Source: a virus. From it: DNA of 31,023 nucleotides. Each line of letters starts with the position of its first letter. Position 1 is the stretch's first letter. The DNA lies in the IMG/VR virus record IMGVR_UViG_3300009703_000070, positions 1 to 31,023 of that record; one strand, given 5' to 3'. The translations under genes and the position numbers were made by a program. This document shows positions 9,410-25,752 of this stretch, piece by piece. The notes beneath the pieces are model-generated. The model saw nothing but the letters and a program-made list of their open reading frames with translations. It made no database searches and was not told the origin of the DNA.

Positions 9410-11173
9410 ATGTCAGAAAAGTACTTGGGAGTTAGTATTGACCTATCAAGAGATAAATTATTATCAAAACAAGCAGAAAAATTATTAAAAGATTATTATT
9501 GTCTAAGTGAAGAAAAATCACCACAACAAGCATTCGCAAGAGCAGCCAAAGCATATTGCTATGGAGACAACAAACTAGCACAAAGAATTTATGATGGTGC
9601 AAGTAAAGGTTGGTTTATGTTTGCATCACCAGTATTATCAAACGCACCAATCAGCACTAAAAAAATAAAAGCATTACCGATATCTTGTTTCTTATCATAT
9701 GTACCAGATAGTCTAGATGGTCTAATAGATCATACAGCAGAATTAAGATGGTTATCTGTTAAGGGTGGTGGAGTTGGTGGACATTGGTCAGCAGTTCGTT
9801 CAGTATCAGATATTGCACCAGGCCCAATACCATTTTTACATACAGTTGATGCAGATATGATAGCATATCGACAAGGTAAAACACGTAAAGGTTCATATGC
9901 AGCTTACATGGATATATCACACCCTGACATAGAAGAGTTTCTTACAGTAAGATTACCAACTGGTGACATAGGTCGTAAATGTTTAAATTTACATAACGCA
10001 GTAAATGTAACAGATGAATTTATGAATGCTGTAAAAGAAGGTAAAGAATGGCATTTAAAAGACCCAAATGATGGCACTATTAGAACTACAATGTCAGCAA
10101 GAAAACTTTGGGAAAAAGTTTTAGAAGTTAGATTTAGAACTGGCGAACCTTATGTAAATTTTATAGATACTGCAAATAAACATTTACCAAAAACACAAAA
10201 AAAACTAGGACTAAAGATAAATGGTTCTAATTTATGTAATGAAATACATCTAGCAACAAATGATGATAGAACAGCTGTTTGTTGTTTATCATCTTTAAAT
10301 TTAGAAATGTATGATGAGTGGAAAGATACAACACTTGTAAGAGATTTAATACATTTTTTAGATAACGTGTTACAATTTTTTATAGATCACGCACCAGATG
10401 TCTTACACAAAGCAAAATATTCAGCAACAAGAGAAAGAAGTTTAGGACTTGGTGCTATGGGTTATCACTCATATTTACAAAAAAATAATATACCTTTTGA
10501 AAAATCAGATGATATAAATGAAGAGATATTTGATTTTATTAAACATGAAGCAGTAGAAGAATCTAAAAGACTTGGAAAAGAAAAAGGTGAGGCACCTGAT
10601 ATGAAAGGAACTGGTATGCGTAATGCACACTTACTAGCAATTGCACCTAATGCTAATAGTTCTATGATTGTTGCAACTTCACCTAGTATAGAACCTAATA
10701 AAGCAAATGCATACACACATAGAACAAGAGCTGGTTCACATTTAATAAAGAATAAATATCTGGTCAGCTTGCTAGACAAATACGATATGAATAAGACGGA
10801 AGTATGGACAAGCATTATAACAAATGGTGGGTCAGTACAACACTTAACTTTTTTATCTAACGAAGAGAAAGAAGTATTTAAAACAGCAGTTGAAATTGAC
10901 CAAATAAAATTAGTAGGACTCGCAGGTCAAAGACAGAAACATTTATGTCAAGGTCAATCTTTAAATGTTTTCTTTCCAGCAGGTGCGTCTAAAAAGTATC
11001 TTCAAAAGGTACATTTTAAAGCATGGGAAAATGAGTGTAAAGGATTATATTATTTAAGAACAGAAACATCTAAGAGAGCAGAGAATATAGCTTCAAAAGT
11101 TCAATTAGATAAATTAAGAGACATATCTGATATTAAAAAAGATGAAGATGAGTGTGTCTCTTGTCAAGGATAG
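9410..11173 (+). CDS. nrdA: Ribonucleotide reductase class I, large (alpha) subunit
   Basis: Reduces ribonucleoside diphosphates to deoxy forms for phage DNA synthesis. Seen: active-site NLCNE with Asn274, Cys276 and Glu278; the disulphide-forming Cys93 (ISCFLS) and Cys291/292 (AVCCLSSLN); adjacent Tyr547/Tyr548 on the radical path; and a C-terminal CVSC shuttle pair (Cys582, Cys585). I chose ATG 9410 because GGAAAAGG lies 8 bases before it; the frame extends to TTG 9392 but that would overlap the primase. At 587 residues it is much shorter than the roughly 760-residue E. coli enzyme and begins without the ATP-cone, so dATP feedback inhibition is probably absent. Confidence 0.93.
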   Translation: MSEKYLGVSIDLSRDKLLSKQAEKLLKDYYCLSEEKSPQQAFARAAKAYCYGDNKLAQRIYDGASKGWFMFASPVLSNAPISTKKIKALPISCFLSYVPDSLDGLIDHTAELRWLSVKGGGVGGHWSAVRSVSDIAPGPIPFLHTVDADMIAYRQGKTRKGSYAAYMDISHPDIEEFLTVRLPTGDIGRKCLNLHNAVNVTDEFMNAVKEGKEWHLKDPNDGTIRTTMSARKLWEKVLEVRFRTGEPYVNFIDTANKHLPKTQKKLGLKINGSNLCNEIHLATNDDRTAVCCLSSLNLEMYDEWKDTTLVRDLIHFLDNVLQFFIDHAPDVLHKAKYSATRERSLGLGAMGYHSYLQKNNIPFEKSDDINEEIFDFIKHEAVEESKRLGKEKGEAPDMKGTGMRNAHLLAIAPNANSSMIVATSPSIEPNKANAYTHRTRAGSHLIKNKYLVSLLDKYDMNKTEVWTSIITNGGSVQHLTFLSNEEKEVFKTAVEIDQIKLVGLAGQRQKHLCQGQSLNVFFPAGASKKYLQKVHFKAWENECKGLYYLRTETSKRAENIASKVQLDKLRDISDIKKDEDECVSCQG

Positions 11174-11186
11174 GAAAGGTAACGAA

Positions 11187-12509
11187 ATGGACGTACAAAT
11201 ATATACAACACCAACTTGTGGTTATTGCTTACAAGCAAAGAATTGGTTTAATGAACATGGAATAGAATACGTTGAGCATACAATGACAACGGAAGCAGAG
11301 AGATTAGAATTTTATCAAAGAGTAAACAATACTCAAGAAAAATTATTAAGTAATAAAGAGGATGTTGAACAAGTAAGACAAGTTGCCTCTGTGCCACAAA
11401 TATTTGTAAATGGTGAACGTATTGGTGGATACGCAAACTTATTACAAAGCTCTGAAAAGATTTTAAAAAAAAGAGGTGGTAGTTTAACAAAATTTAGCGA
11501 AGCATATAAGCCATTTCATTTTCCCTGGGCGGTCGAGTTTGTACAGAAACACGAAAAAGTTCATTGGATTGAAGACGAGGTAGATTTAGCAGATGATGTA
11601 ACAGATTGGAAAGGTGGACGTGTAACTGAATCTGAAAAAGATTTTATTACTAACGTTTTAAGATTATTTACTCAATCAGATGTTGCAGTAGGACAAAACT
11701 ACTATGACCAATTTATTCCAAAATTTAAAAATAACGAGATAAGAAATATGCTTGGTTCTTTTGCAAGTAGAGAAGGTATACACCAAAGAGCATATGCATT
11801 ATTAAACGAAACACTTGGTCTACCAGATGAAGAGTTTCATGCTTTTATGGAATACAAAGAAATGTCAGATAAAGTAGATTACATGATGAGCTCAGATGTA
11901 ACTACTAAAAAAGGTTTAGGTTTAGCACTAGCAAAATCTGTATTTAATGAAGGCGTATCTTTATTTGCATCTTTTATAATGTTATTAAACTTTCAAAGAT
12001 TTGGAAAGATGAAAGGTTGTGGTAAAATAGTTGAGTGGTCAGTAAGAGACGAGTCAATGCACGTTGAAGGTATCGCACATCTATTCAGAGCATATTGTGC
12101 TGAAAATGCTAGAATTGTTGATAATGATTTTAAAAAAACAATTTACGAAATGTCAACAAAGATTGTAGACCTAGAAGATAAGTTTATTGATTTAGCATAT
12201 AAAAATGGTGACATAGAAGGTCTTCCAAAAAAAGATGTTAAAAAATATATTAGATACATAACAGATAGAAGACTTTTACAATTAGGATTAAAAACTAATT
12301 TTAAAGTTAAAGACAATCCTATTCCATGGTTGGAGTGGATTTTAAATGCAGCAGACCATACTAACTTTTTTGAAAACAGAGTAACAGAATATGAAGTTGC
12401 TGGTTTAACAGGTAGGTGGGATGATGCATACGAAGAAAAACCAGGTGAAGAGTGCGACCCTGTAACTGGCGTATGTGAAGTGCCTTTACCGAAAGAAATG
12501 ACTAACTAA
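11187..12509 (+). CDS. nrdB: Glutaredoxin-NrdB fusion: ribonucleotide reductase small (beta) subunit
   Basis: 440 residues. Residues 1-95 are a glutaredoxin domain with CGYC (11-14), the cis-Pro VP (69-70) and a GGY motif (80-82). The rest is the ferritin-like radical subunit with metal ligands Asp165, Glu196, His199, Glu255, Glu289 and His292, and radical Tyr203 in the EGIHQRAY motif, so a class Ia-type diiron-tyrosyl enzyme. The start is ATG 11187, 7 bases after AGGAAAGG; the frame is open further upstream but without a ribosome binding site. The fused glutaredoxin could reduce the NrdA C-terminal cysteines directly. Glutaredoxin-NrdB fusions are known in some bacteria. Confidence 0.92.
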   Translation: MDVQIYTTPTCGYCLQAKNWFNEHGIEYVEHTMTTEAERLEFYQRVNNTQEKLLSNKEDVEQVRQVASVPQIFVNGERIGGYANLLQSSEKILKKRGGSLTKFSEAYKPFHFPWAVEFVQKHEKVHWIEDEVDLADDVTDWKGGRVTESEKDFITNVLRLFTQSDVAVGQNYYDQFIPKFKNNEIRNMLGSFASREGIHQRAYALLNETLGLPDEEFHAFMEYKEMSDKVDYMMSSDVTTKKGLGLALAKSVFNEGVSLFASFIMLLNFQRFGKMKGCGKIVEWSVRDESMHVEGIAHLFRAYCAENARIVDNDFKKTIYEMSTKIVDLEDKFIDLAYKNGDIEGLPKKDVKKYIRYITDRRLLQLGLKTNFKVKDNPIPWLEWILNAADHTNFFENRVTEYEVAGLTGRWDDAYEEKPGEECDPVTGVCEVPLPKEMTN

Positions 12510-14229: not shown

Positions 14230-14380
14230 CAATATATTATTTTATTTACTTATACTATACGCTACTGTATTTTGGTCATTTAGATTGGGAAATCTAATTG
14301 CATTAAAAACTAAAATATCAATACCAACATTTTTATTTTTTATGGCATTATTTAAATTAGTATGGAGTAGTTATGCTTAA
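14222..14380 (+). CDS. Small two-helix membrane protein
   Basis: 52 residues with two hydrophobic stretches, residues about 5-20 (ILFYLLILYATVFW) and 33-48 (ISIPTFLFFMALFKLVW), separated by a short basic loop. It overlaps the preceding and following genes by 8 bases each, which supports its being real. It lies at the junction between replication genes and the sugar cassette. It might be a membrane component related to the latter, or a holin-like protein; the sequence does not decide. Confidence 0.5.
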   Translation: MNNNILFYLLILYATVFWSFRLGNLIALKTKISIPTFLFFMALFKLVWSSYA

Positions 14381-15095
14381 CATATGTTTTGTGAAGTTTG
14401 GTGATAAAGTTCAAGGTTTTGATGCAGATAAACTTTTATATGATATGATTGAACCCATAATTAATAATGTAAAAGAAGATTTTGAAATATGGGTTGCCAC
14501 TGACAGACCAATATATAATATAACACTTAATCCAAAAATTAATTATATTCCTTTAACTAATCAAGACATAAAAGAACATGGTCATTGGACAAAGATATTT
14601 TTCTTTGACCCATCATATATAAAAGCAAAAGAGGGTGATACTACTGTTATCATGGATATTGATATGCAATGGAAGAAAGACCCAACACCTGTCCTCACAT
14701 ACCCAGTAAAACTTGGTGAGTTTGTTTCTATGGATAGATGGTGGAAAAGTGACCCAATGCCAATCAGCGGTAACTTATATAAGTTTAATTCATATGATTT
14801 TAAGTTTGTATATGATAACTACATGGAAGATTACAAGAAACATAAGAAGTATTATTATGAGAATAAAATAGTGCAGATGCCACAAGAAGGTGAACAGTAT
14901 TTTGTTTATGATCAGATAAAAGACAAATCACCTTGGTTCAATGTAAAACTGCAACCAGCAGAATGGTGTATGAAGATTCACTTAAAAAATGAAGAGAGAC
15001 AAAAAATGTATGAGGATAAATTTAAAGAAGTTACTGGTAAGGAGTATGGTAAGTGTATATTTGATGCGATATGGACTTATGAAAATATAAAATGA
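14373..15095 (+). CDS. GT-A-like glycosyltransferase
   Basis: 240 residues. The start, LNICFVKFGDKVQGFD, and the strand-helix pattern fit a GT-A fold, with the metal-binding Asp-x-Asp at residues 95-97 (VIMDIDMQWKKDP). A typical GT-A acceptor-side segment (GEQYFVYDQIK, then a Trp/Cys/His cluster) follows near residues 172-205. Predicted to transfer a sugar, possibly from the nucleotide sugar made by the genes downstream, onto a glycan, lipid or protein. GGAG lies 6 bases before the ATG. First gene of a six-gene chain with overlaps or tiny gaps. Donor and acceptor are unknown. Confidence 0.6.
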   Translation: MLNICFVKFGDKVQGFDADKLLYDMIEPIINNVKEDFEIWVATDRPIYNITLNPKINYIPLTNQDIKEHGHWTKIFFFDPSYIKAKEGDTTVIMDIDMQWKKDPTPVLTYPVKLGEFVSMDRWWKSDPMPISGNLYKFNSYDFKFVYDNYMEDYKKHKKYYYENKIVQMPQEGEQYFVYDQIKDKSPWFNVKLQPAEWCMKIHLKNEERQKMYEDKFKEVTGKEYGKCIFDAIWTYENIK

Positions 15096-15952
15096 ACATA
15101 ATATTTGGAGCAGGTAAATTTAGTAATGTACATCTTAAGGTATTAAAAGAAAAAGGAATACGTAAAGCTATACTTGCAAAAAAATCATCTTGGACAGATA
15201 AACAAAAACAAGAGTTTAAAAATAAACATGATGACATGAAACTCTTCTTTGATAATCAACCAAATATTTATAATGAAACAATTCATATAGTTACCCCTAG
15301 CAAAACACATGCGAAAGTTTTATACGAAAATAAAAATGCAAAAAAAATTTTTATTGAAAAACCAGCAGTTTTATTTAACTCAGATAGTGATTATATATTA
15401 AGTAATAAAGTAAATGAATTAATATGGCAATATGGATTAGTTGTATATCAAAATGATTGGTTATCACAAACACTACATTATAGAATTAATAAAGGCAAAC
15501 CTTATTCAATAGATTTTACGTATCATGTTAAGAACCCTAATAACGAAGATCACATAACAGAGATAGCAAGTCATGCTATGATACTGTTAAGTAAATGGTG
15601 TAGTGTTAATAGTAAAATTAAATTAAACTTTGAAAGTATTGGTGATCAATATACTGTTTTAAATTTTACAATAGATGACATAAAAGTTCATTTAAATATG
15701 TCAAATGGATTAAGAGATAAAAGTTTTTGGTCATTAAAAATAGACGATGAGTATTTTTCTACAGATAATATAGGACATGCTTTAATGTCAAATACAATGA
15801 ATGTAATGTTAAAAGATTTAAAACCTTTTACTGATTGGTATGAATCTAGTTGGTTAATACATAAGCTTAGATTAATAAAAGATGAAGATTTATATCAAGA
15901 GCATTTGAAAGGATATTATGAAAAGAATAAAGAAACTAGAACCAAGTATTAA
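15092..15952 (+). CDS. Gfo/Idh/MocA-family oxidoreductase
   Basis: 286 residues. The N-terminal Rossmann start (MNIIFGAGKFSNVHL) has a Gly-x-Gly dinucleotide motif, and IHIVTPSKTHAKVLYE followed by FIEKP (Glu89-Lys90-Pro91) is the diagnostic family signature. The C-terminal half would be the substrate-binding beta-sheet domain; it contains ITEIASHAMILL, where the family often has a catalytic His. The usual role is NAD(P)-dependent oxidation or reduction of sugars or nucleotide sugars. Start overlaps the previous stop (ATGA), and the end overlaps the cupin gene by 35 bases. It is a little shorter than typical bacterial members. Confidence 0.75.
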   Translation: MNIIFGAGKFSNVHLKVLKEKGIRKAILAKKSSWTDKQKQEFKNKHDDMKLFFDNQPNIYNETIHIVTPSKTHAKVLYENKNAKKIFIEKPAVLFNSDSDYILSNKVNELIWQYGLVVYQNDWLSQTLHYRINKGKPYSIDFTYHVKNPNNEDHITEIASHAMILLSKWCSVNSKIKLNFESIGDQYTVLNFTIDDIKVHLNMSNGLRDKSFWSLKIDDEYFSTDNIGHALMSNTMNVMLKDLKPFTDWYESSWLIHKLRLIKDEDLYQEHLKGYYEKNKETRTKY

Positions 15953-16298
15953 TCCAGCTACATTTAAAGATGGTAGAGGTATAATACAAACTTACTTTCC
16001 TCAAGATAAAAATATTGTAGAATGGAATTATATAGTTACTTTAAAAGACTCTGTAAGAGGACACCACTATCATAATGAGTTTGATGAGTATGTAATGTTT
16101 GTAGAGGGCGAAGGTGTATATACTGAATATACAGGCGATAAAGAGTATGTAACAACTGTTAGTGCTGGAACTTGTTTATACATACCCTCAGGTGTACCAC
16201 ATACATTTTATCCTACGGCAGATTGTAAAATGGTAGCAATGATTACTAAACGTTGGGATGATTGTAAAGAACCAATAACTAAATTTAAAATAAAATGA
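15918..16298 (+). CDS. Cupin-domain protein, possible sugar isomerase/epimerase
   Basis: 126 residues forming a single cupin barrel. Motif 1 is [20 protein letters not shown], with metal-ligand candidates His50, His52 and Glu57; motif 2 is [12 protein letters not shown] with His95. The N-terminal [11 protein letters not shown] resembles small cupins that act on dTDP- or GDP-linked keto sugars (RmlC/FdtA-like). In a cassette with Gmd it could isomerise or epimerise a 4-keto-6-deoxy sugar. AAAGGA precedes the ATG. It could instead be a small binding cupin with another ligand. Confidence 0.65.
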
Positions 16299-17302
16299 AG
16301 AGAGCTATAATATTTGGTATAACAGGTCAAGATGGTTCTTACTTAGCAGAATTATTATTAAAAAAAGGTTATACAGTTCATGGCGTTATAAGAAGATCAT
16401 CTACTTTTAATACGTCAAGATTAGATCATATCTATCAAGAACCATTTCAAAAAGATAGAAACTTTATACTTCATTATGGGGATGTGACAGACTCTTTATC
16501 AGTATCAAGAATTGTAAAAAATGTACAACCACATGAAATATATAATTTAGCAGCTCAGTCTCACGTTGCAGTATCTTTTGAAATACCTGAATACACAGCA
16601 AACGCAGATGCTATCGGTCCATTAAGAATTTTAGAAGCAATTAAGTATCATGGACTAAAAACAAAATTTTATCAAGCTTGCACCTCAGAAATGTATGGTT
16701 CAAGTCCGTCACCACAAAATGAAAATACACCAATGCATCCAGCAAGTCCTTATGGTGTAGCAAAACTATATGCATATTGGATTACTAAAAACTATAGAGA
16801 TGCGTATGGCATCTTTGCCTGTAATGGAATATTATTTAATCATGAAAGTCCTAGACGTGGTGAAACTTTTGTTACAAAAAAAATAGTTTCTGCATTAACT
16901 AAAATAAGAAATACAGAACCTAAAATATTATATCTTGGAAATCTTAATGCAAAAAGAGATTGGGGTCATGCAAAAGATTATGTTGAGGCAATGTGGTTAA
17001 TGTTACAACAAGATAAACCAGATGACTTTGTTATTGCAACAGGTAAACAATACTCTATAAAAGATTTTGTTAATATGACAGCAGATGAATTAGATATGGA
17101 TATCACTTGGAAAGTTGGAGAGGACGGTGAGGAAAGAGGTTATTATAAAAATAAAGCTGTTGTTCAATGTAGTCAAAAATACATTAGACCTTTAGATGTA
17201 AATACTTTGATGGGTGATGCTACTAAAGCAAAACAAATATTAAAGTGGAAACCTAAACACGATATAAAATCTTTGATAAAGGATATGATAAACAATGCTT
17301 AA
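16295..17302 (+). CDS. gmd: GDP-mannose 4,6-dehydratase
   Basis: 335 residues of extended SDR fold. It converts GDP-mannose to GDP-4-keto-6-deoxymannose, the precursor of GDP-fucose, GDP-rhamnose and GDP-perosamine. Seen: the NADP-binding [15 protein letters not shown] (residues 8-22), the family-typical [15 protein letters not shown] (33-47), the catalytic Ser131/Glu132 in QACTSEMYG, Tyr153-x-x-x-Lys157 in SPYGVAK, and [17 protein letters not shown]. The motif match is high enough to name the enzyme. It is coupled by overlaps to the cupin upstream and the SDR downstream. Phage-encoded Gmd is known in marine T4-like phages. Confidence 0.92.
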
Positions 17303-18185
17303 TATAGTAATGACAGGTGGAAATGGATTTTTATTAGGAAATTATATTAAAGATTATAATCATAATTTTATTGCACCTAAAAGTACAGAGGTTAATTGGG
17401 TTACAGGTAAAGGTATTGATACTTTACCAGATAAACCAGATGTCTTTATTCATAGTGCTGCGATATATGGTGGATTACCTTTTAATCAAAACAATCCAAA
17501 AAGAGTGTTATTAGACAATACTAAAATGAGTGTAAATGTATTTGAATATATTTTTAAAGCAAAACCAAAAAAAGTTATAATGATAGGGAGTTGTTGTGCA
17601 TATCCAAATAGAGATGAAAAATTTACAGAGGATATGTTAGGAGAAGGTAGACCACAAAGTACAGTTGAGTTATACGCAATGAGTAAATTATGGCATTTAG
17701 CTGCGTGTGAGCGTTTAGTAGATGATTGGACTTGTTTAGTATTAGCAAATATGTATGGTTTAGGTGAGATATATAAACATGAAGAGTCCTCACACGTTAT
17801 TGGTTCAATAACAAAAAAGATAATGAAAGCAAAAGAGGATAATACGGATGTTCAATTACTAGGAACTGGCACACCTACAAGACCTTTAGTATATGTGAAA
17901 GATGTATGCGATGTTATAGATTTTTTTGCTACAAGTCGTTATACACCAAATGGTGCATATAACGTTGGAGAGGAAGAAGGCATTACTATAAAAGAAATGG
18001 CAGAAACTATAGCAGATGTATTACAATATAAAGGTAAAATTTTATGGGGAGACCCTAAAGATAATGGTTCATTACATAGAGCTATGAATTATGATAAGTT
18101 AAATAAAATACATCCTTATAGAATAAGGACTACATTAAGAGAAGGTTTAAATGAAAGTATTAGTTTTATCAGCTCACCCAGATGA
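17295..18185 (+). CDS. GDP-L-fucose synthase-like SDR epimerase/reductase
   Basis: 296 residues. Cofactor loop TGGNGFLLG (7-15), then GSCCAYP (98-104), where the Ser99/Cys101 spacing matches the active-site Ser and Cys of GDP-fucose synthase, and the Tyr127-x-x-x-Lys131 pair in [16 protein letters not shown] and [11 protein letters not shown] also match that family. Next to Gmd, the likely product is GDP-L-fucose or a close 6-deoxyhexose. It overlaps gmd by 8 bases and the deacetylase by 35. Sequence length is slightly below E. coli Fcl. A related 4-reductase activity is possible. Confidence 0.82.
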
Positions 18186-18729
18186 TTTAGAATTATCTTG
18201 TGGTGGTACAATTTCTAAAATGAAATCTATGGGTGCAACTATAGATAATTTTATTCTTTGTCCTTATCAAGATCATAAAAAATATCTAACTACAACATCA
18301 GCAATATTAGGATTTAACCCAATACTAAACGAGGAAAAAGAAAGACCAAAACTAGATCATAACTTAATAGGTAAAATAGAAAAACAATTAGATATGCCAA
18401 GTTATGATTTACTTATAACTCATTGGAAAGAAGATTGGCATCAAGACCATAGAATATGTCATGATGTAGCAAATACATTAAGACGTAAACAACCATTAGA
18501 AGTTTGGTATATGAATGCTTTTACTTATTGTCAAAAATATACTACTTTTGAAGCAAATGTATTTTCTGATATATCAAATCATTTTATAAACAAAAGAAAA
18601 GCAATAGAATGCTATAAGAACGTAAACTCTAGATGGGTTGATGATGTTGAGGCCATGTCTAAATTTAGAGGTTCTTTTATTAACGTAGAACACGCAGAGG
18701 TCTTTAAAGCAGATACTATATTGTTCTAA
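18151..18729 (+). CDS. PIG-L/LmbE-family deacetylase
   Basis: 192 residues. The N-terminal [13 protein letters not shown] (8-20) gives the family's zinc-binding His9 and Asp12 with catalytic Asp11, and HWKEDWHQDHR (91-101) supplies the third ligand His100. Members remove N-acetyl groups from GlcNAc-containing glycolipids, mycothiol precursors or polysaccharides. As the last gene of the sugar cassette it may modify an amino sugar on the host surface or on a phage-made glycan. AGAGAAGG lies before the ATG. The protein is a little shorter than typical members but the motifs are intact. Confidence 0.82.
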   Translation: MKVLVLSAHPDDLELSCGGTISKMKSMGATIDNFILCPYQDHKKYLTTTSAILGFNPILNEEKERPKLDHNLIGKIEKQLDMPSYDLLITHWKEDWHQDHRICHDVANTLRRKQPLEVWYMNAFTYCQKYTTFEANVFSDISNHFINKRKAIECYKNVNSRWVDDVEAMSKFRGSFINVEHAEVFKADTILF

Positions 18730-18740
18730 TAAATATATCT

Positions 18741-19022
18741 ATGGATTTATTTTTTACACTTCTAGTCGAATTTGGATTACCTGTAGCATCAGCTACAGTA
18801 ATGGGAGTTTTCATATACATCATTCTTAAATACATATTAGATTCAGTAATAGGTCAAGTTAATAGTATTCATGGTATCATCATGGGATTGGATAATAGAA
18901 TAAAAACAATGAACAATGACATGATAAAACTAGACGTACAGATATCAGAGGCATTAGACTTAAAACAAGATGAGGACAGAATCGCTAGAGCAGATGGTAA
19001 GACAGATGCACGAAAGGATTAA
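18741..19022 (+). CDS. Membrane/coiled-coil protein, copy 1 of tandem pair
   Basis: 93 residues: an N-terminal membrane segment (residues about 5-30, VEFGLPVASATVMGVFIYIIL) and a cytoplasmic or periplasmic helical domain (GLDNRIKTMNNDMIKLDVQI). It aligns without gaps to the next gene over about 70 residues, sharing MGxFIYxIxK, GLxxRI and NDxIxL. The arrangement suggests tandem duplication and a hetero-oligomeric membrane complex. It lies between the sugar cassette and the curli-like cluster. An AATAAATA at 18728-18735 is too close to the start codon to serve as its promoter. Holin is possible but unsupported. Confidence 0.6.
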   Translation: MDLFFTLLVEFGLPVASATVMGVFIYIILKYILDSVIGQVNSIHGIIMGLDNRIKTMNNDMIKLDVQISEALDLKQDEDRIARADGKTDARKD

Positions 19023-19270
19023 TGACAGTTGTTGAAATACTAAATCAATATGGATTTGCCACACTAGCAGCTGTGGCTATGGGATACTTTATATATTTCA
19101 TATACAAATTTACTACAGAAAATATCAAGAAAAAGTTAAGTGAGGCAAATGTCGCACTAATTGGATTACTAGACAGAATTAGAATGCTTGATAATGACTT
19201 AATTAGACTACGATCTAAGTTACAGACAGCAAGACAGATCAAAGAAAATCAAAAAAAGAAAAAAGATTAA
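19022..19270 (+). CDS. Membrane/coiled-coil protein, copy 2 of tandem pair
   Basis: 82 residues, start overlapping the previous stop (TAATG). Membrane segment at residues about 10-30 (GFATLAAVAMGYFIYFIYKF), then a charged helical region (LLDRIRMLDNDLIRLRSKL) and a Lys-rich tail. It is clearly paralogous to the gene before it, with the same motif spacing but little sequence identity outside the shared positions. The two are translationally coupled, consistent with a fixed stoichiometry. The intergenic gap to CsgF is only 27 bases, so they may be transcribed with the curli-like genes. Function unknown. Confidence 0.6.
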   Translation: MTVVEILNQYGFATLAAVAMGYFIYFIYKFTTENIKKKLSEANVALIGLLDRIRMLDNDLIRLRSKLQTARQIKENQKKKKD

Positions 19271-19297: not shown

Positions 19298-19780
19298 ATG
19301 AAAACACTTAATATGGTGTTTATGGGCCTATTGTTTTATGTGTTTTCGACTTCCATAATCACAGCTTCAGAATTGGTACATGAATTTAAGAACCCGTCAT
19401 TTAGTGGTAATGGGTATTCTAGTCATGTATTATCTATTGAACAATTACAATTCAATAGAAAAAAAGAAATAAAAGATGATGAAAAATCTGCAGCTGCAGC
19501 CGCAGAAAGAAAAGCGAATAATACTACTATCAATAAGTTTATTAAGAACGTTGAAAGTAGAATATATGCAAACTTATCAAAACAGTTAGTAGATAATATG
19601 TTTGGTACAAGTTGCGATAGTAGCACAACAACTTGCCCGACAAGTGGTACTGCTAATGTAGAGGGTTCTACGATATATTGGGTAAAGGACTCATCTACTG
19701 AAATAATTACACTAACGATTACAGACCCAAATGGTAATGTAACCACAATGTCTGTACCATTAGGTGACTTTAACTTTTAA
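19298..19780 (+). CDS. CsgF-like curli assembly protein
   Basis: 160 residues. A signal peptide (1-23, ending IITA) leads to a mature N-terminus, SELVHEFKNPSFSGNGYSS, which matches E. coli CsgF's FRNPNFGGNP segment, the part that inserts into the CsgG pore. A following SIEQLQFNRKK matches CsgF's NSAQAQN region. An Ala/Lys/Asp-rich linker, a helical part and a C-terminal beta hairpin (ITLTITDPNGNVTTMSV) complete the CsgF layout. It is 22 residues longer than E. coli CsgF, and has a Cys pair (Cys106, Cys113) in the extra part. It lies directly before csgG, and would act at the outer membrane. Confidence 0.82.
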   Translation: MKTLNMVFMGLLFYVFSTSIITASELVHEFKNPSFSGNGYSSHVLSIEQLQFNRKKEIKDDEKSAAAAAERKANNTTINKFIKNVESRIYANLSKQLVDNMFGTSCDSSTTTCPTSGTANVEGSTIYWVKDSSTEIITLTITDPNGNVTTMSVPLGDFNF

Positions 19781-19786
19781 GGATAT

Positions 19787-20623
19787 ATGAAATTATTATT
19801 AGTTTTATTATTAGGATTTATATTGTCAGGTTGTGCGTCAACTCAATCTAATAAAATAAAACATGGTGCTGAACCTTATATTGAGGGAACAACAACACTT
19901 GAGAAGTTAAAAGAAATACCTGATTTAGATCAACCGCAGATAACAATTGCGGTATACGAATTTACAGACCAGACAGGTCAGAGAAAACCAAACCCAAACT
20001 TTTCTCAACTGTCAACTGCTGTGACGCAAGGACCAGATGTCTGGGTCATAAGTGCTTTGAAATCAGTCAGTAATGGCGATTGGTTCAAAGTGGTAGAAAG
20101 AAAAGGATTGTCAAATCTAGTCAAAGAAAGACAATTGATTAGATCAACAAGAGAGTTATATGATGGCGAGAGAGATAATGTTTTAAAACCATTAGTCTTC
20201 GCTGGATTAATTGTTGAAGGTGGTATTGTAGGATATGACAGCAATGTTGCAAGTGGTGGCGTTGGTGCAAGATATTTTGGAATAGGACTAAGTGAACAAT
20301 ATCGTACAGACCAAGTAACAGTTTCGTTAAGACTCGTTGCAGTACAAACAGGTGAGATATTATTATCTGTTTCAGCAACAAAAACAATTGCTAGTTATAG
20401 TAAGGGTGGTGATGTATTCAGATTTTTAGATATGAGCACAAAAGCATTAGAGTTTGAATCAGGTCAAGCAACAAATGAACCTGTTAATTATGCAATAAGA
20501 ACAACAATAGAACACGCTGTACTACAAATGATATATGAAGGTGTTAATAAAAAATTATGGAAAATGGAAGGCGTTAAATCAATAATAACTGAGCCTAAAA
20601 TTTCAGGTTCAATAAGAGGATAA
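19787..20623 (+). CDS. CsgG-like outer-membrane curli secretion channel lipoprotein
   Basis: 278 residues, one more than E. coli CsgG. A lipoprotein signal ends in LSGC (Cys16). Conserved CsgG stretches include VYEFTDQTGQRKPNP (56-70), FKVVERKGLSNLVKERQLIR (100-119), GYDSNVASGGVGARYFGIG (149-167) and TGEILLSVSATKTI (188-201). It should form a multimeric beta-barrel pore that exports unfolded amyloid subunits. In the pore constriction loop, E. coli Tyr51, Asn55 and Phe56 align to Asn69, Gln74 and Leu75 with one extra residue, so gating may differ. The gap to CsgF is only 6 bases. No CsgE is visible nearby. Confidence 0.92.
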   Translation: MKLLLVLLLGFILSGCASTQSNKIKHGAEPYIEGTTTLEKLKEIPDLDQPQITIAVYEFTDQTGQRKPNPNFSQLSTAVTQGPDVWVISALKSVSNGDWFKVVERKGLSNLVKERQLIRSTRELYDGERDNVLKPLVFAGLIVEGGIVGYDSNVASGGVGARYFGIGLSEQYRTDQVTVSLRLVAVQTGEILLSVSATKTIASYSKGGDVFRFLDMSTKALEFESGQATNEPVNYAIRTTIEHAVLQMIYEGVNKKLWKMEGVKSIITEPKISGSIRG

Positions 20624-20626
20624 AAC

Positions 20627-21310
20627 ATGAAAACATTAATTAAATTCGTTATGTGTTTGATGATGTTTTCGCCAGTATTGGCAAACGATATTTATGTTAC
20701 ACAATCAGGTAATACTTTAACTTTTGATGTATTGCAAGATGGTCAAAATAACACAATAGGTTCATCTGGTACACCATCAACTGTAACAGGTGCTACTACA
20801 AATATGAACATTGACCAAATTGGTAACTCTAACGTATTAACCTTTGATATTAATGGTGCATCATATACAGGTACATTTAGCACGACTGGTAACAGTAACG
20901 ATATTGATTTAAAATGTGATAGTGGTGGGTCTAACTCATCGTGTGCTAACGTTACAGCATCAATTGTATGGGTTGGTTCATCTAACGATATTGATATAGA
21001 TGTTGGTGAAACTTCAGATGCAACAGGTGCTACAATTAATATATCAGGTGCATCTGGTAGTGACTCAAATGTTGTGGCTGGAACAATAGATGGTACAAGT
21101 GTTATCTTTACTTTATCAGTAAACGGTGACACAAATAATTTCTTGGTTGATATAGACGGAGATGGTGATAGTATAGGTCACACTTACATACACACTCATA
21201 CGGGTTCTATTGCAGATGTAGATATTACACAATCAGGTATCTACGATAATATGATTACTTTAACAACAAGTGGTGATAACCACAATATCGATATTATACA
21301 GAGAGACTAA
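20627..21310 (+). CDS. Secreted curlin-repeat (amyloid-like) protein, short
   Basis: 227 residues. A signal peptide ends at SPVLA (residue 19). The mature protein has irregular curlin-type strands with Asn, Gln and Gly at turns: VTQSGNTLTFDVLQDGQNN (24-42), MNIDQIGNSNVLTFDI (60-75) and VDITQSGIYDNMITL with IDIIQRD (198-227). The middle is Ser/Gly/Asp-rich with two Cys residues (97, 106). Such repeats form cross-beta amyloid fibres in CsgA and CsgB. Starting 4 bases after the CsgG-like gene, it is the natural export substrate. Repeat regularity is lower than in CsgA, so a nucleator (CsgB-like) role is also possible. Confidence 0.75.
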   Translation: MKTLIKFVMCLMMFSPVLANDIYVTQSGNTLTFDVLQDGQNNTIGSSGTPSTVTGATTNMNIDQIGNSNVLTFDINGASYTGTFSTTGNSNDIDLKCDSGGSNSSCANVTASIVWVGSSNDIDIDVGETSDATGATINISGASGSDSNVVAGTIDGTSVIFTLSVNGDTNNFLVDIDGDGDSIGHTYIHTHTGSIADVDITQSGIYDNMITLTTSGDNHNIDIIQRD

Positions 21311-21311
21311 T

Positions 21312-21416
21312 ATGGGTACATTAACATTTATATTATTTGTAGGAATGGTAATATATGCGGCTCGTAAGTTTTATACTTGGGTTCATACTCTTAACCCTTA
21401 TATCTTTACAAAGTAG
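21312..21416 (+). CDS. Possible 34-residue membrane peptide
   Basis: A short ORF starting 2 bases after the curlin stop and ending inside the FecR gene in another frame. Residues 4-16 (LTFILFVGMVIYA) are hydrophobic enough for a membrane segment. There is no clear ribosome binding site beyond AGAGA. It may be a real coupling peptide that carries ribosomes to the FecR start, or a chance frame. Low certainty. Confidence 0.3.
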   Translation: MGTLTFILFVGMVIYAARKFYTWVHTLNPYIFTK

Positions 21417-22473
21417 TCTTGCATCTATAGGTCAAGTTTCTTTATACGAAGGTAATGCAGCTATCGATAGAAAAGATGGTGATCAAGGTATTACCGTAGA
21501 AAAAAATTTAGATGTATTTTCATATGATACTGTAAAGACAGGTAATGGTAAAGTTGGTATAGAATTTATCGATAATACTAGAGTTGATGTTACTGAACAT
21601 TCTAAACTTCTTATTGATGAATTTGTTTATGACCCAAATACTAAAAAAGGTAAACTTTCATTAAAAGCAAAACTAGGCACAGTAAGATATGCCTCAGGTC
21701 AAATTGCAAAAAACTCAGCAACAGATGTATTAATAACAACACCAACAGCTACGATTGGTGTTCGTGGTACTGATTTTACAATGACGATAGATGAGATAGG
21801 TTCATCTACAATTATTCTTTTACCAAGTTGTGATACAAATGGCAATTGTTTTGTAGGTGAGATTAGTGTTGAGTCAGATGCAGGTCAAGTAATATTAAAT
21901 CAAGCATTTCAAGCAACAGTGGTTGATACAGTTTCTAGTAAACCATTAACACCTGTACTTTTAGAGTTAGATGAAGAAATGATTGGTAATTTGTTAATTG
22001 TATCTAAACCAGCTGCAATAGAACAAATGCAAAATGAAGAGGGATTAAATGAAGTCGCAGATGCTTTAGATATTGATTTCTTACAATTTGATGATTTAGA
22101 AGTAGATCATCTTGAAGAAGATGAAAGTCAATTTGCAACAGGTCTTGACATAGATTTTTTAGAACAAAACTTTTTAGCAGATATCTTAGCACAAATTAAC
22201 AAAGAATTAGCAAAGTCAATGAGGTCAGAATTTGAGAAACAAAAATCAGTTGGTGATATTCAACTAGGAAAAAATACTGAGACTGGTGTTATAATATTAG
22301 ATGAAGACCCTCAATGGGTATGGATAAGAGAAGATGCAAGTGGTTCATATATAGAATTAAGACTTGATAAAGAGTATGGTTATGTTCTAAATATAATTCA
22401 AGGGGAGTTTGAACAATACGATTTCGAACTAGGAGGCGTGGATAATGCGATCACCATACAACAAATTAATTAG
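21355..22473 (+). CDS. FecR-domain exported protein
   Basis: 372 residues. A signal peptide (about 1-24, ending SSLA) predicts export. A FecR domain spans about 55-145: YDTVKTGNGKVGIEFID, then TRVDVTEHSKLLIDEF, and TTPTATIGVRGTDFTM (128-143), the family's signature. An acidic repetitive part around 225-275 contains two similar ALDIDFLQF/GLDIDFLEQ segments. The last 30 residues (NIIQGEFEQYDF, then DNAITIQQIN) resemble a curlin repeat. FecR-domain proteins are often encoded next to CHASE2 cyclases in bacteria, as here. It may act as a periplasmic sensor, cap or adaptor. Overlaps the next gene by 29 bases. Confidence 0.82.
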   Translation: MRLVSFILGFILLTLISLQSSLASIGQVSLYEGNAAIDRKDGDQGITVEKNLDVFSYDTVKTGNGKVGIEFIDNTRVDVTEHSKLLIDEFVYDPNTKKGKLSLKAKLGTVRYASGQIAKNSATDVLITTPTATIGVRGTDFTMTIDEIGSSTIILLPSCDTNGNCFVGEISVESDAGQVILNQAFQATVVDTVSSKPLTPVLLELDEEMIGNLLIVSKPAAIEQMQNEEGLNEVADALDIDFLQFDDLEVDHLEEDESQFATGLDIDFLEQNFLADILAQINKELAKSMRSEFEKQKSVGDIQLGKNTETGVIILDEDPQWVWIREDASGSYIELRLDKEYGYVLNIIQGEFEQYDFELGGVDNAITIQQIN

Positions 22474-23914
22474 TGTTTTATTAGGCGCACTATTATTAGG
22501 TGTTCTTATTTTATTTAATGCTCGTGCTTATGCTAACACAGCACATATACAATATACTGATACCAATATGTACAATAAAATAAAAGGTGAATTGGAAAGT
22601 GAAGGTTATACAGTTACGGGTACAAGTGGTGGGTCAGTAAGTTTAAGTGATTTTACTGGCAAAGATTTACATATCAATGTTGCAGGTAACAACAACTGTG
22701 GTAACAATTGTAAAACAGCATATGAAACTTATATAGGTGCAGGTGGTAATGTTATTATTGCAGGTGATGGCACTCATAATTCAAATAGGTCAGGTAGTAT
22801 TGAGGCTCTTATAGAAAGTAAATTAAATGTTGGTGCGATTACATTATTTACTAATAATGCAAACTACTTAGCACACGCACATGGTAGTCAATATTCAGAT
22901 ACATCTAATTATTGGGTTACAAGAAACGTATTTAGAATGACCTCAGGTGGTACACCATTAGCTGATAATTCTAGTGGCAGTCTTAGCACTTGGAGAAACT
23001 GGGCAGTATATAGTTATGGTAGTAATGGTGGTAAACTAATAGTAACATTTGACCAGGCACAATTTAATCATACTGGTAATAACAACAGCTCAACTTGGTC
23101 TACAAGATTTTATAACTTCTTAACAACAACACTATCACATGAAAGTGTAACATCAGCAACCATAAACATAACACCAACAACAAGTCAATCATCCATAATT
23201 ACAACTGATAAAGCAAAAACAGGTAATGGTGTAAAGATGAATGTTGATGGTGATAGCAATACCATTAATATCGAACAACACGGTGAGAATAATTTTATCA
23301 TAGGAACAGATTGGTCAAGCGATAGTCAAATTACGGGTAACAATAATGTTCTTAATATCGATCAAGGAAACGTAACTACAAGTGGTAATAGTGGTAACAA
23401 TGGAATTGCGTTAGATGTAACAGGCAATACAAATACACTTAATATATCTCAAGGTGATTATGGAACTGACACAGGCGATCATAGAATATGGTTAGATATT
23501 GATGGTAATACAAACACAATGACATTGACACAAAGAAATGATGGTACAACTTCAAGTGAGCATTACATGAATTTAGATATAGATTCAGGTTCAAATATTA
23601 TCACAATGCAACAACTTGATAATGGCGATAAAACATTATTCCTAGATATAAACAATTCTAATAATACAGTAGATATAACTCAGTCTGGCACAGGTGAACA
23701 CTTTTTAGACTTAAAATTAGATACAAGTAACTACGCTCACGATGTTGATATAACACAACAAGGTTCAGGTAATCATGCAGGTCGTGTTGAATTAGATGGT
23801 TATTCTACTGATTTTGATTTGATGCAACAAGGTTCTACTGATCAAGATTACAATATAAATATGACTTGTGGCACAGTTTCAGGCTGTACGTTATCAACAA
23901 CGCAAGGTAATTAA
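22445..23914 (+). CDS. Large secreted protein with C-terminal curlin repeats
   Basis: 489 residues. A signal peptide ends near ARAYA (30). Residues about 33-235 form a globular N-terminal domain with HIQYTDTNMYNKI and GGNVIIAGDGTHN (100-112), reminiscent of ThuA/glutamine-amidotransferase-like folds, no catalytic residue confirmed. Residues about 262-475 hold eight curlin-type motifs, Asn-x-x-x-Ile/Leu-x-Gln, with Gln at 278, 307, 336, 363, 390, 413, 439 and 462, so spaced 23-29 residues. AGGAGG at 22431-22436 lies 8 bases before the ATG. A plausible adhesin-like amyloid, exported by the CsgG-like pore. Confidence 0.75.
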   Translation: MRSPYNKLISVLLGALLLGVLILFNARAYANTAHIQYTDTNMYNKIKGELESEGYTVTGTSGGSVSLSDFTGKDLHINVAGNNNCGNNCKTAYETYIGAGGNVIIAGDGTHNSNRSGSIEALIESKLNVGAITLFTNNANYLAHAHGSQYSDTSNYWVTRNVFRMTSGGTPLADNSSGSLSTWRNWAVYSYGSNGGKLIVTFDQAQFNHTGNNNSSTWSTRFYNFLTTTLSHESVTSATINITPTTSQSSIITTDKAKTGNGVKMNVDGDSNTINIEQHGENNFIIGTDWSSDSQITGNNNVLNIDQGNVTTSGNSGNNGIALDVTGNTNTLNISQGDYGTDTGDHRIWLDIDGNTNTMTLTQRNDGTTSSEHYMNLDIDSGSNIITMQQLDNGDKTLFLDINNSNNTVDITQSGTGEHFLDLKLDTSNYAHDVDITQQGSGNHAGRVELDGYSTDFDLMQQGSTDQDYNINMTCGTVSGCTLSTTQGN

Positions 23915-25752
23915 TGAAATTTTTAACACATTGGACTACAGCATTTATAACATTATTTTTTCTTACTTACATAGGTTTACAAGACATATCATTCAAAGAA
24001 ACTCTAAGACTTAAATCATTTGATTATCTTCTAGCAAATGAAGAGAAGTCGCAATCTCAAGACATAACAATCATAACAATAGACGAACAAGCAATAGAGA
24101 AGTATGGTCAATGGCCTTGGCCTAGAGAAACACTTGCTAAACTAATTATAGATTTACGACAAGCACAAACAGGTATAATTGTTATGCCTATCTTGTTTTC
24201 AGAGTCAGATAGATTTGATGGTGATAAAGTATTTTGTGAAACACTAACTTATGGAACTGTTATAGCACAAACAGGTACAACACAAAAAAGAACATCTAAC
24301 CCAGTACCAAGAGGAGTTGCAAAGATAGGAAACCCATTATCATTTTTATTTGAATGGCCTGGAATGGTTGGTCCATTACCAGAACTAGCAGAATGTGCTA
24401 ATGGTGTAGGAGTAATTAATACAGCACCAGAGATAGATGGTGTCGTTAGAAGAGTACCATTATTAATGAAAATAGGTGATGAAGTATATCCTAACATGGC
24501 GATTGAAACAATAAGAGTTGCAGTAGGTGACCCTAGTTATCAAGTTAAGGCAGATGAGTTTGGTGTTATTGCAATGAGAGTACCTGGTTTCGATACAATC
24601 AAAACAGATGCAAATGCTAGAATATGGATTAGGTGGAACAAAAAGTTTAAAACTATATCAGCAGCTAGTAATGATTTTTCACAAGCTGCAGGCACTACAG
24701 TTATTATCGCAATGACGGCAGAGGGATTAGGTGGTGTAGTTGCAACACCAACTGGTGAACAATATGATTATACAATATCAGCAAACACATTACAAACTGT
24801 TTTAGATGGTGAGACTATCAAAAGATATGATGCGTTTTATGAATTACTAATTGCATTTATAGTAGGTATTGCCATGATTGTTTTAGTAAGATATTCAGCA
24901 TATTGGATAATAGGACTTGCAATTATATTTGTATCTGTATCATTACCTGTATATACAAATATGTTTTTTGTTCAAAACTTAATGTTAGTAGATGTAACAT
25001 GGATACTACTTACATTTTTAGTAGTTGCTTTTCATAGTACGTTTTTAAGATTTATATTAGAGTTTAAATTAAAACAACAAATAAGAAAACAGTTTGAGAA
25101 GTATCTAGACCCTAGACAAGTAGCAATATTAGTCAAAGACCCTAGTAAATTAAAACTTGGTGGTGAAAGAAAAGAGATGAGTTTCTTGTTCATGGACATT
25201 GTAGGTTTCACACCAATATCAGAATACTATAAGAACAATGATGACCCAGAGGGATTGGTCAATGTCATTAACGATTATTTAAATCGTATGAGTAAGATAG
25301 TACTAAAGAATGGTGGAACGATAGACAAATACATGGGTGATTGTATCATGGCATTTTGGAACGCACCATTGGATTGTCCTAATCACGCAGAGATGGCAGT
25401 CAAGACATCTATTGAATGTGCTGAAGAGACAGATAGAATTAAGAAAGAGTTTAAGGAAAAAGGATTACCAGATATCAATATAGGTTCTGGTGTTAATACT
25501 GGTACTTGTATAGTTGGGAATATGGGTAGTGAGATGAGACTAGACTATTCTGTTATTGGGGATGCAGTTAATCTGGCCGCAAGACTAGAAGCACAAACTA
25601 GGAACTACAAAGACGAGAATGGTAAAGTTACACCTACTTTATATTCATCATATACAAAAGAACAATTAGAGAACATTAAATCAATAGAAGTAGATAAAAT
25701 AAAGGTCAAAGGAAAAGAAGAATTGATTACAATCTTCAAACCTGATGTTTAG
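23914..25752 (+). CDS. CHASE2-transmembrane class III nucleotide cyclase
   Basis: 612 residues. A membrane segment (about 7-24), an extracytoplasmic CHASE2 sensor (about 30-300, with TIDEQAIEKYGQWPWPRE at 55-72), three membrane segments (about 306-378), a short linker, and a class III cyclase domain (about 415-612). Active-site residues are present: metal-binding Asp428 (FMDIVGF) and Asp476 (YMGD), base-recognition Lys472 and Ser546, transition-state Asn553 and Arg557 (VNLAAR). Lys plus Ser/Thr at those sites favours ATP, so cAMP. The start overlaps the curlin-protein stop (TAATG). It is a full-length enzyme that would act in the inner membrane. Ligand unknown. Confidence 0.92.
   Translation: MKFLTHWTTAFITLFFLTYIGLQDISFKETLRLKSFDYLLANEEKSQSQDITIITIDEQAIEKYGQWPWPRETLAKLIIDLRQAQTGIIVMPILFSESDRFDGDKVFCETLTYGTVIAQTGTTQKRTSNPVPRGVAKIGNPLSFLFEWPGMVGPLPELAECANGVGVINTAPEIDGVVRRVPLLMKIGDEVYPNMAIETIRVAVGDPSYQVKADEFGVIAMRVPGFDTIKTDANARIWIRWNKKFKTISAASNDFSQAAGTTVIIAMTAEGLGGVVATPTGEQYDYTISANTLQTVLDGETIKRYDAFYELLIAFIVGIAMIVLVRYSAYWIIGLAIIFVSVSLPVYTNMFFVQNLMLVDVTWILLTFLVVAFHSTFLRFILEFKLKQQIRKQFEKYLDPRQVAILVKDPSKLKLGGERKEMSFLFMDIVGFTPISEYYKNNDDPEGLVNVINDYLNRMSKIVLKNGGTIDKYMGDCIMAFWNAPLDCPNHAEMAVKTSIECAEETDRIKKEFKEKGLPDINIGSGVNTGTCIVGNMGSEMRLDYSVIGDAVNLAARLEAQTRNYKDENGKVTPTLYSSYTKEQLENIKSIEVDKIKVKGKEELITIFKPDV

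Follow-up and report, generated by a model that had tools for sequence, protein, structure and literature searches.

A CHASE2 class III nucleotide cyclase in phage curli export cassettes, a putative signalling partner of a FecR-domain protein

Introduction

Curli-type cassettes have been described in Pelagibacter podo- and myophages, for which excerpts of PMC9599517 (2022; which we take to be Wittmers et al. 2022) give the gene series HK, CsgF, CsgG, CsgA/B, FecR, CsgA/B and adenylate cyclase, assign the cassette an alphaproteobacterial origin and report its expression in metatranscriptomes. The cultured Pelagibacter phage HTVC008M encodes such a cyclase (AGE60353.1, annotated 'adenylate/guanylyl cyclase'), and the OM43 phage Melnitz encodes another (QZI94833.1). 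Here we analyze the related gene of a marine phage from the IMG/VR viral record IMGVR_UViG_3300009703_000070, perhaps a fragment, whose entire 31,023 bases are referred to below as the window; its product, a cyclase with a CHASE2 sensor domain, is 81% identical to the HTVC008M protein and 47% identical to that of Melnitz. The phage curli-cassette cyclase gene was thus already known and is not new in itself, so that the novelty attached to it in a sequence-only reading of the window, made prior to any database search, falls away.

The words CHASE and C-terminal are absent from the main text of PMC9599517, as is the word cyclase from the excerpts of PMC7029224 (2020) and PMC9004378 (2022), which discuss curli genes, and a full-text literature search combining phage, CHASE2 and adenylate cyclase returned unrelated papers only. 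Bases 1-50000 of the 59769 of MW574966 held no gene labelled as part of a podoviral curli cassette. The ligands of CHASE2 domains are called unknown in an excerpt of PMC5192318.

Results

A receptor-type class III cyclase

The gene in question and its two domains are as follows.

23914..25752, + strand: CHASE2 class III cyclase of 612 amino acids (aa), ATG start (Pfam domains, AlphaFold; phrog_35576, unknown function, 1048 bits)
23962..24867, + strand: CHASE2 sensor domain, aa 17-318 (PF05226, E 2.3e-39, 136 bits, cut-off 26.3)
25171..25734, + strand: class III catalytic domain, aa 420-607 (PF00211 Guanylate_cyc, E 3.3e-19, 69.6 bits, cut-off 21.9)

Class III cyclases employ two metal-binding Asp residues, a purine-contacting Lys together with a second residue, and a catalytic Asn and Arg; Lys combined with Ser or Thr is the class IIIb adenylate pattern. 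The window protein has D428, K472, D476, S546, N553 and R557, all six where the sequence-only reading had placed them, and this full set, along with a Pfam match above its cut-off, identifies it as a class III nucleotide cyclase. An AlphaFold model built from 31 aligned sequences (mean predicted local distance difference test score, pLDDT, 85.2; predicted template modelling score 0.67) shows an N-terminal helix (residues 8-23), an alpha/beta sensor, helices 307-327, 330-355 and 362-394, and a cyclase fold. Hydropathy at the cut-off used flags the three post-sensor helices only and not the N-terminal one; Pfam and AlphaFold combined give the layout of CHASE2 receptors, namely an N-terminal transmembrane (TM) helix, CHASE2, three TM helices and an output domain, and thereby bear out the complete sensor-membrane-catalytic architecture that had been proposed. 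Superposition, suggested at the same time as a check, returned the class III fold, the cyclase part aligning with Pseudomonas aeruginosa CyaB (3r5g; Z 25.4, root-mean-square deviation 1.5 over 185 residues, 38% identity). The CHASE2 part found no match in the PDB, neither in a sequence search nor among the whole-model matches listed, which does not show a new fold. Judged by its residues and domains, the membrane enzyme is intact, and its product is probably cyclic AMP (cAMP).

FecR as the constant partner of the phage cyclase

One gene away from the cyclase, the window encodes a FecR-domain protein that the sequence-only reading had left unnamed, so that the FecR-CHASE2 adjacency is found here as well.

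21355..22473, + strand: protein of 372 aa with a FecR domain and an N terminus resembling a signal peptide (PF04773, E 3e-9)

Two scans gave 160 cyclase loci; the linkage counts from these and from the CsgG search below are weighted towards sequences close to the query and contain near-copies. Of the 92 loci with at least 3.5 kb of upstream sequence, 89 have a FecR gene in it in the same orientation as the cyclase, and in the other three the cassette is inverted beside the cyclase, so that FecR is linked in 92/92. Starting from the other end, 80 loci were collected with a CsgG query: FecR was present in all 38 with at least 2.5 kb downstream, and FecR and the cyclase together in all 19 with at least 5.5 kb. 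One locus (L023) is devoid of CsgG only in that its flank stops short of the CsgG position.

The same association recurs on bacterial plasmids. Among 16 plasmid records, hand-picked from the matches, mostly from alpha- and betaproteobacteria and in several cases interrelated, a FecR domain lies within 3.2 kb at 18 of 18 CHASE2 places; cyclase domains in proteins of these records that are devoid of CHASE2 have FecR within 4 kb in 0/32 cases. In this search seven of the 18 CHASE2 proteins contain no cyclase domain (W10 twice, W11, W12, W13, W14 and W16), and FecR therefore pairs with the CHASE2 sensor rather than with the cyclase. The plasmid-encoded cyclase relatives listed at 80% query coverage or more are 22-33% identical to the window protein. 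A tblastn search with the phage FecR found no match on the plasmids, though a hidden Markov model (HMM) detects FecR domains there, and four csgG loci on alphaproteobacterial plasmids, chosen out of 54 records, all lack a FecR or cyclase annotation in the surrounding 6 kb. A Methyloprofundus plasmid (L276:230-4344) encodes a CHASE2 cyclase beside a FecR-domain open reading frame (ORF) and an annotated CRP/FNR cyclic AMP receptor, a compact bacterial form of the arrangement that includes its likely receptor.

Conservation and selection

Sequence comparisons were based on 159 cyclase ORFs of more than 560 aa (139 distinct), one from the window and the others from 158 of the 165 loci; of the seven loci left out, six are cut at contig ends and one (L086) is split, and L020 was dropped from the sequence sets as the same phage as L082. 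D428, K472 and D476 were present in 82/82 sequences of the first set, and the metal Asp pair, the Lys and the Arg are kept in 159/159. Only two active-site patterns occur, K..S..N as in the window (81 sequences) and K..D..S as in Melnitz (78), while a further site, position 599, is a gap in one sequence of each type. The Melnitz-type proteins (L083:10001-12052 and relatives in L104-L183) have about 70 extra C-terminal residues, the Melnitz cyclase measuring 683 aa.

The ratio of nonsynonymous to synonymous substitution rates (dN/dS; Nei-Gojobori, saturation-filtered) was determined for 36 disjoint pairs drawn from 136 at 88-98.5% identity, some of the 36 being near-copies of one another, and gave medians of 0.091 overall, 0.045 for the cyclase part, 0.081 for CHASE2 and 0.168 for TM helices 2-4. 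The phage cyclase is under strong purifying selection.

Exchange of catalytic heads

Sensor and catalytic part do not share one history. The window and Melnitz proteins are 60% identical in CHASE2 and 36% in the cyclase part; for the window versus L087 the values are 39% and 82%, for Melnitz versus L181 33% and 84%, and L155 combines a Melnitz-like sensor (72%) with a third head that is 59% identical to Ensifer and CyaK heads. Trees were built from 36 phage rows hand-picked from 158, and the head label changes once on the cyclase tree and four times on the CHASE2 tree, two of these changes being forced by starred branches. A one-change topology appeared in 0/200 bootstrap trees of the careful CHASE2 tree. 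With both tested groups named after the trees were seen, the approximately unbiased (AU) test rejected a single D/S clade on the CHASE2 data (p-AU 0.011, long branches being involved) and the main CHASE2 clade on the cyclase data (p-AU 3e-31). Synonymous divergence between the window and L003 is 0.58 in CHASE2 and 0.14 in the cyclase part, as recent head exchange would give. These comparisons indicate that catalytic heads are exchanged between sensor lineages, a process for which no report was found in those portions of the literature that were covered.

The curli cassette and the FecR tail

The remaining cassette genes precede or flank FecR.

18741..19022, + strand: small protein, 93 aa, hydrophobic N-terminal stretch (phrog_18771, unknown function; hydropathy; no Pfam match up to E 5)
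19022..19270, + strand: related small protein of 82 aa (phrog_18771; Pfam match at chance level only, E 0.22)
19298..19780, + strand: CsgF (PF10614, E 8.3e-15)
19787..20623, + strand: CsgG outer-membrane pore (PF03783, E 3.9e-55)
20627..21310, + strand: first curlin-like protein of 227 aa (E 1.7e-4 to the CsgB model, short of that model's cut-off; C-terminal strand motif as in FecR)
22369..22470, + strand: C-terminal tail of FecR, aa 339-372 (a pair of curlin-like strand motifs at a spacing of 21 aa)
22445..23914, + strand: second curlin-like protein, 489 aa (weak Curlin_rpt match, PF07012, E 0.042, below cut-off)

The second curlin-like protein contains a series of hydrophobic-x-hydrophobic-x-Q motifs spaced 23-29 aa. 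Its stop codon overlaps the cyclase start as TAATG, from which a shared function had been proposed. The overlap is present, but it is not conserved, an intergenic gap of 8 nt in HTVC008M and 15 nt in Melnitz taking its place; what links the cyclase to curlin is the one-strand order CsgF, CsgG, curlin, FecR, curlin, cyclase, which is the same in the window, HTVC008M and Melnitz and is thus the better evidence of shared function. The two small ORFs (18741-19270) occupy the site named HK in excerpts of PMC9599517, a match made by position, and no kinase domain was found in them; relatives occur in 42/70 loci with enough flank. Rfam at gathering scores gave no match, TATAAATA was found 7 times against 7.4 expected, and sigma-70-like sites near the cassette numbered 43 against 54.6 expected.

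The FecR tail ends on the strand motif hydrophobic-x-hydrophobic-x-Q, as a rule followed by two residues. With incomplete FecR ORFs dropped, 118 of 121 distinct phage FecR proteins carry it terminally, compared with 13.2% when the tails are shuffled and 9.2% for internal stretches of 14 residues, and in 108 of the 118 a second motif stands 21 or 22 residues upstream. Among representatives less than 70% identical, the terminal motif is present in 36/39, and 29 of these have it once more, 21 or 22 aa before. Counted over viral loci, it terminates 117/120 FecR, 125/126 first and 51/88 second curlin proteins, versus 0/115 CsgF, 1/127 CsgG, 2/133 cyclases and 46/1418 other ORFs, the last class including ORFs that are no genes. 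In the AlphaFold model of FecR (mean pLDDT 66.3) the FecR part is confident.

The viral setting

The viral origin assumed by the sequence-only reading is upheld: the window is an IMG/VR viral record in which phage-type primase and ribonucleotide reductase genes surround the cyclase, and a T4-type RNase H is encoded as well (profile match). Cyclase relatives were present in at least 599 of 600 pattern-matched viral stretches, among the matches listed. The megablast match of the window to HTVC008M covers 8% of the query, which is the cyclase gene, so that SAR11 is no more than a suggested host. A single scan of genome contigs gave five loci, every one in Bacteroidota or Omnitrophota bins. Phage-type cassettes or cyclases L085, L086, L087 and L088 lie within contigs binned as Bacteroidota metagenome-assembled genomes; these are probably mis-binned phage contigs. 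Elsewhere in the window, a ribonucleotide reductase small subunit is fused to an N-terminal thioredoxin-like domain in the same ORF (11142-12509), and a cluster with genes resembling those of nucleotide-sugar epimerases and of a PIG-L deacetylase, along with a cupin gene (14373-18729), perhaps serves surface sugar change.

Discussion

We propose that the protein is a working receptor-type cyclase, most likely producing cAMP, that acts as the signalling member of a FecR-CHASE2 pair kept within the curli export cassette, a reading to which we assign a probability of roughly 45%. According to this proposal, the curlin proteins and FecR would reach the periplasm by export, where FecR, its tail sharing the strand motif of the first curlin protein, may engage the CsgG/CsgF/curlin line while its FecR domain contacts the CHASE2 domain at the inner membrane. 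Altered export or assembly would then switch the cyclase dimer, and the resulting cAMP would act via a host receptor, so that the state of curli export is reported as cAMP and the phage cyclase might control host physiology, as the sequence-only reading had supposed. We infer catalysis, the product, the FecR-CHASE2 and FecR-curli contacts, the direction of the signal and the host receptor from genes and models.

Several observations weigh against the proposal. Concerning the product, the fold matches the guanylyl cyclase Cya2 (2w01, Z 24.1) almost as well as it does the adenylate cyclases, which leaves cAMP versus cyclic GMP undecided; the earlier assignment of cAMP from Lys472 and Ser546 accordingly stands as far as these residues are of the adenine type, and receives no help from the fold. 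Melnitz-type heads have Ser in place of the catalytic Asn, which makes their activity doubtful, and the L086 cyclase gene is broken into two ORFs. As to the FecR tail, an HMM built on it does not match curlin significantly (E 0.71 and 1.2 at best), it is modelled at a pLDDT below 50, and its motif occurs in 0/5 bacterial FecR neighbours examined; homology to curlin is thus not shown, and the motif may represent mimicry or an export signal. FecR and the cyclase are sometimes missing from phage curli regions according to excerpts of PMC9599517, and the Sinorhizobium meliloti FecR gene beside cyaD1 is described in an excerpt of PMC5498481 as dispensable for plant-signal perception, a finding that speaks against FecR being the ligand of CHASE2 domains in general. 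Finally, the window, HTVC008M, Melnitz and five further virus records were all negative for a cyclic nucleotide monophosphate (cNMP)-binding domain, so a receptor, if any, would be the host's; the bacterial bin that holds L088 contains eight such domains. A metallophosphatase family absent from the window and from G001 has one match each in HTVC008M and Melnitz, neither identified as a cAMP phosphodiesterase.

The lack of a phage receptor in the virus records searched, together with intact catalytic residues and strong selection, would equally suit a plain host-takeover enzyme whose cAMP shifts host transcription and whose place in the cassette reflects joint transfer or expression instead of curli sensing. 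An unregulated enzyme would, however, need neither the sensor, which is also selected (dN/dS 0.081), nor the FecR gene found alongside in all 92 testable loci, and we consider this explanation rather unlikely. Alternatively, CHASE2 might sense an environmental ligand, for instance a metal or small solute entering via the CsgGF pore, with FecR as the relay and curli merely the fibre made. Excerpts of PMC9599517 propose that the pore serves for import and that FecR provides a tie to iron, which is in line with this idea; no ligand is known, and the motif that ends both the first curlin protein and FecR speaks for the fibre line instead, making this variant unlikely. That the enzyme is a cyclic pyrimidine (Pycsar-like) cyclase or an anti-defence decoy rather than a cAMP enzyme appears very improbable: PADLOC PycC models do match (best E 2.3e-24), but they span only parts of the shared class III fold, the record holds no cNMP-binding effector (PF00027), the top solved relatives are cyclases of the CyaB/CyaC type, and Lys472 with Ser546 is an adenine-type pair. 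A contaminating bacterial sequence or a passenger gene in decay, for which relatives on bacterial plasmids and the one split phage-type locus might be cited, is refuted by the 81% identity in a cultured phage, versus 22-33% for the plasmid relatives, and by the intact-residue ORFs of more than 560 aa at 158 of 165 loci, the rest being six contig-end cuts and one split.

In its most elaborate form, which we regard as doubtful, the FecR-CHASE2 proposal would amount to a phage transmembrane quality-control circuit for a secreted amyloid, in which an adaptor FecR imitating a curlin strand couples the pore to a CHASE2 cyclase whose heads are swapped while the sensor stays matched to FecR. Should the receptor-type reading be true, a lytic phage would add to its host not just an enzyme but a sensor linking an outer-membrane export line to second-messenger signalling, and CHASE2 would gain in FecR a testable partner in bacteria and phages alike.

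Comparison with known systems

The closest counterparts are the curli (type VIII secretion system) cassettes of HTVC008M and Melnitz, which share the gene order of the window with the cyclase identities given above, although Melnitz differs in its catalytic head. S. meliloti CyaD1, CyaD2 and CyaK likewise combine CHASE2 with a class III cyclase, and a FecR domain lies 3.2 kb from cyaK and, by locus tag, adjoins cyaD1; CyaK is 40-46% identical to the window protein in the catalytic part and only 24% in the sensor, and in S. meliloti, unlike here, the cAMP receptor, Clr, is known. The Campylobacterota clusters outlined in excerpts of PMC9239204 (CHASE2 cyclase, phosphodiesterase, FecR and TPR) share the CHASE2 cyclase and the FecR-domain protein, whereas the partners named there are a phosphodiesterase and a TPR protein and not curli genes. 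In the Burkholderia biofilm operon with FecR/LysM and CHASE2 genes (excerpts of PMC5192318), a FecR-domain protein adjoins a CHASE2 protein as in the phage pair, but with a histidine kinase as the output. P. aeruginosa CyaB (3r5g) and Spirulina CyaC (1wc1), in turn, are alike in class III fold and active site and differ in that their solved parts are without CHASE2.

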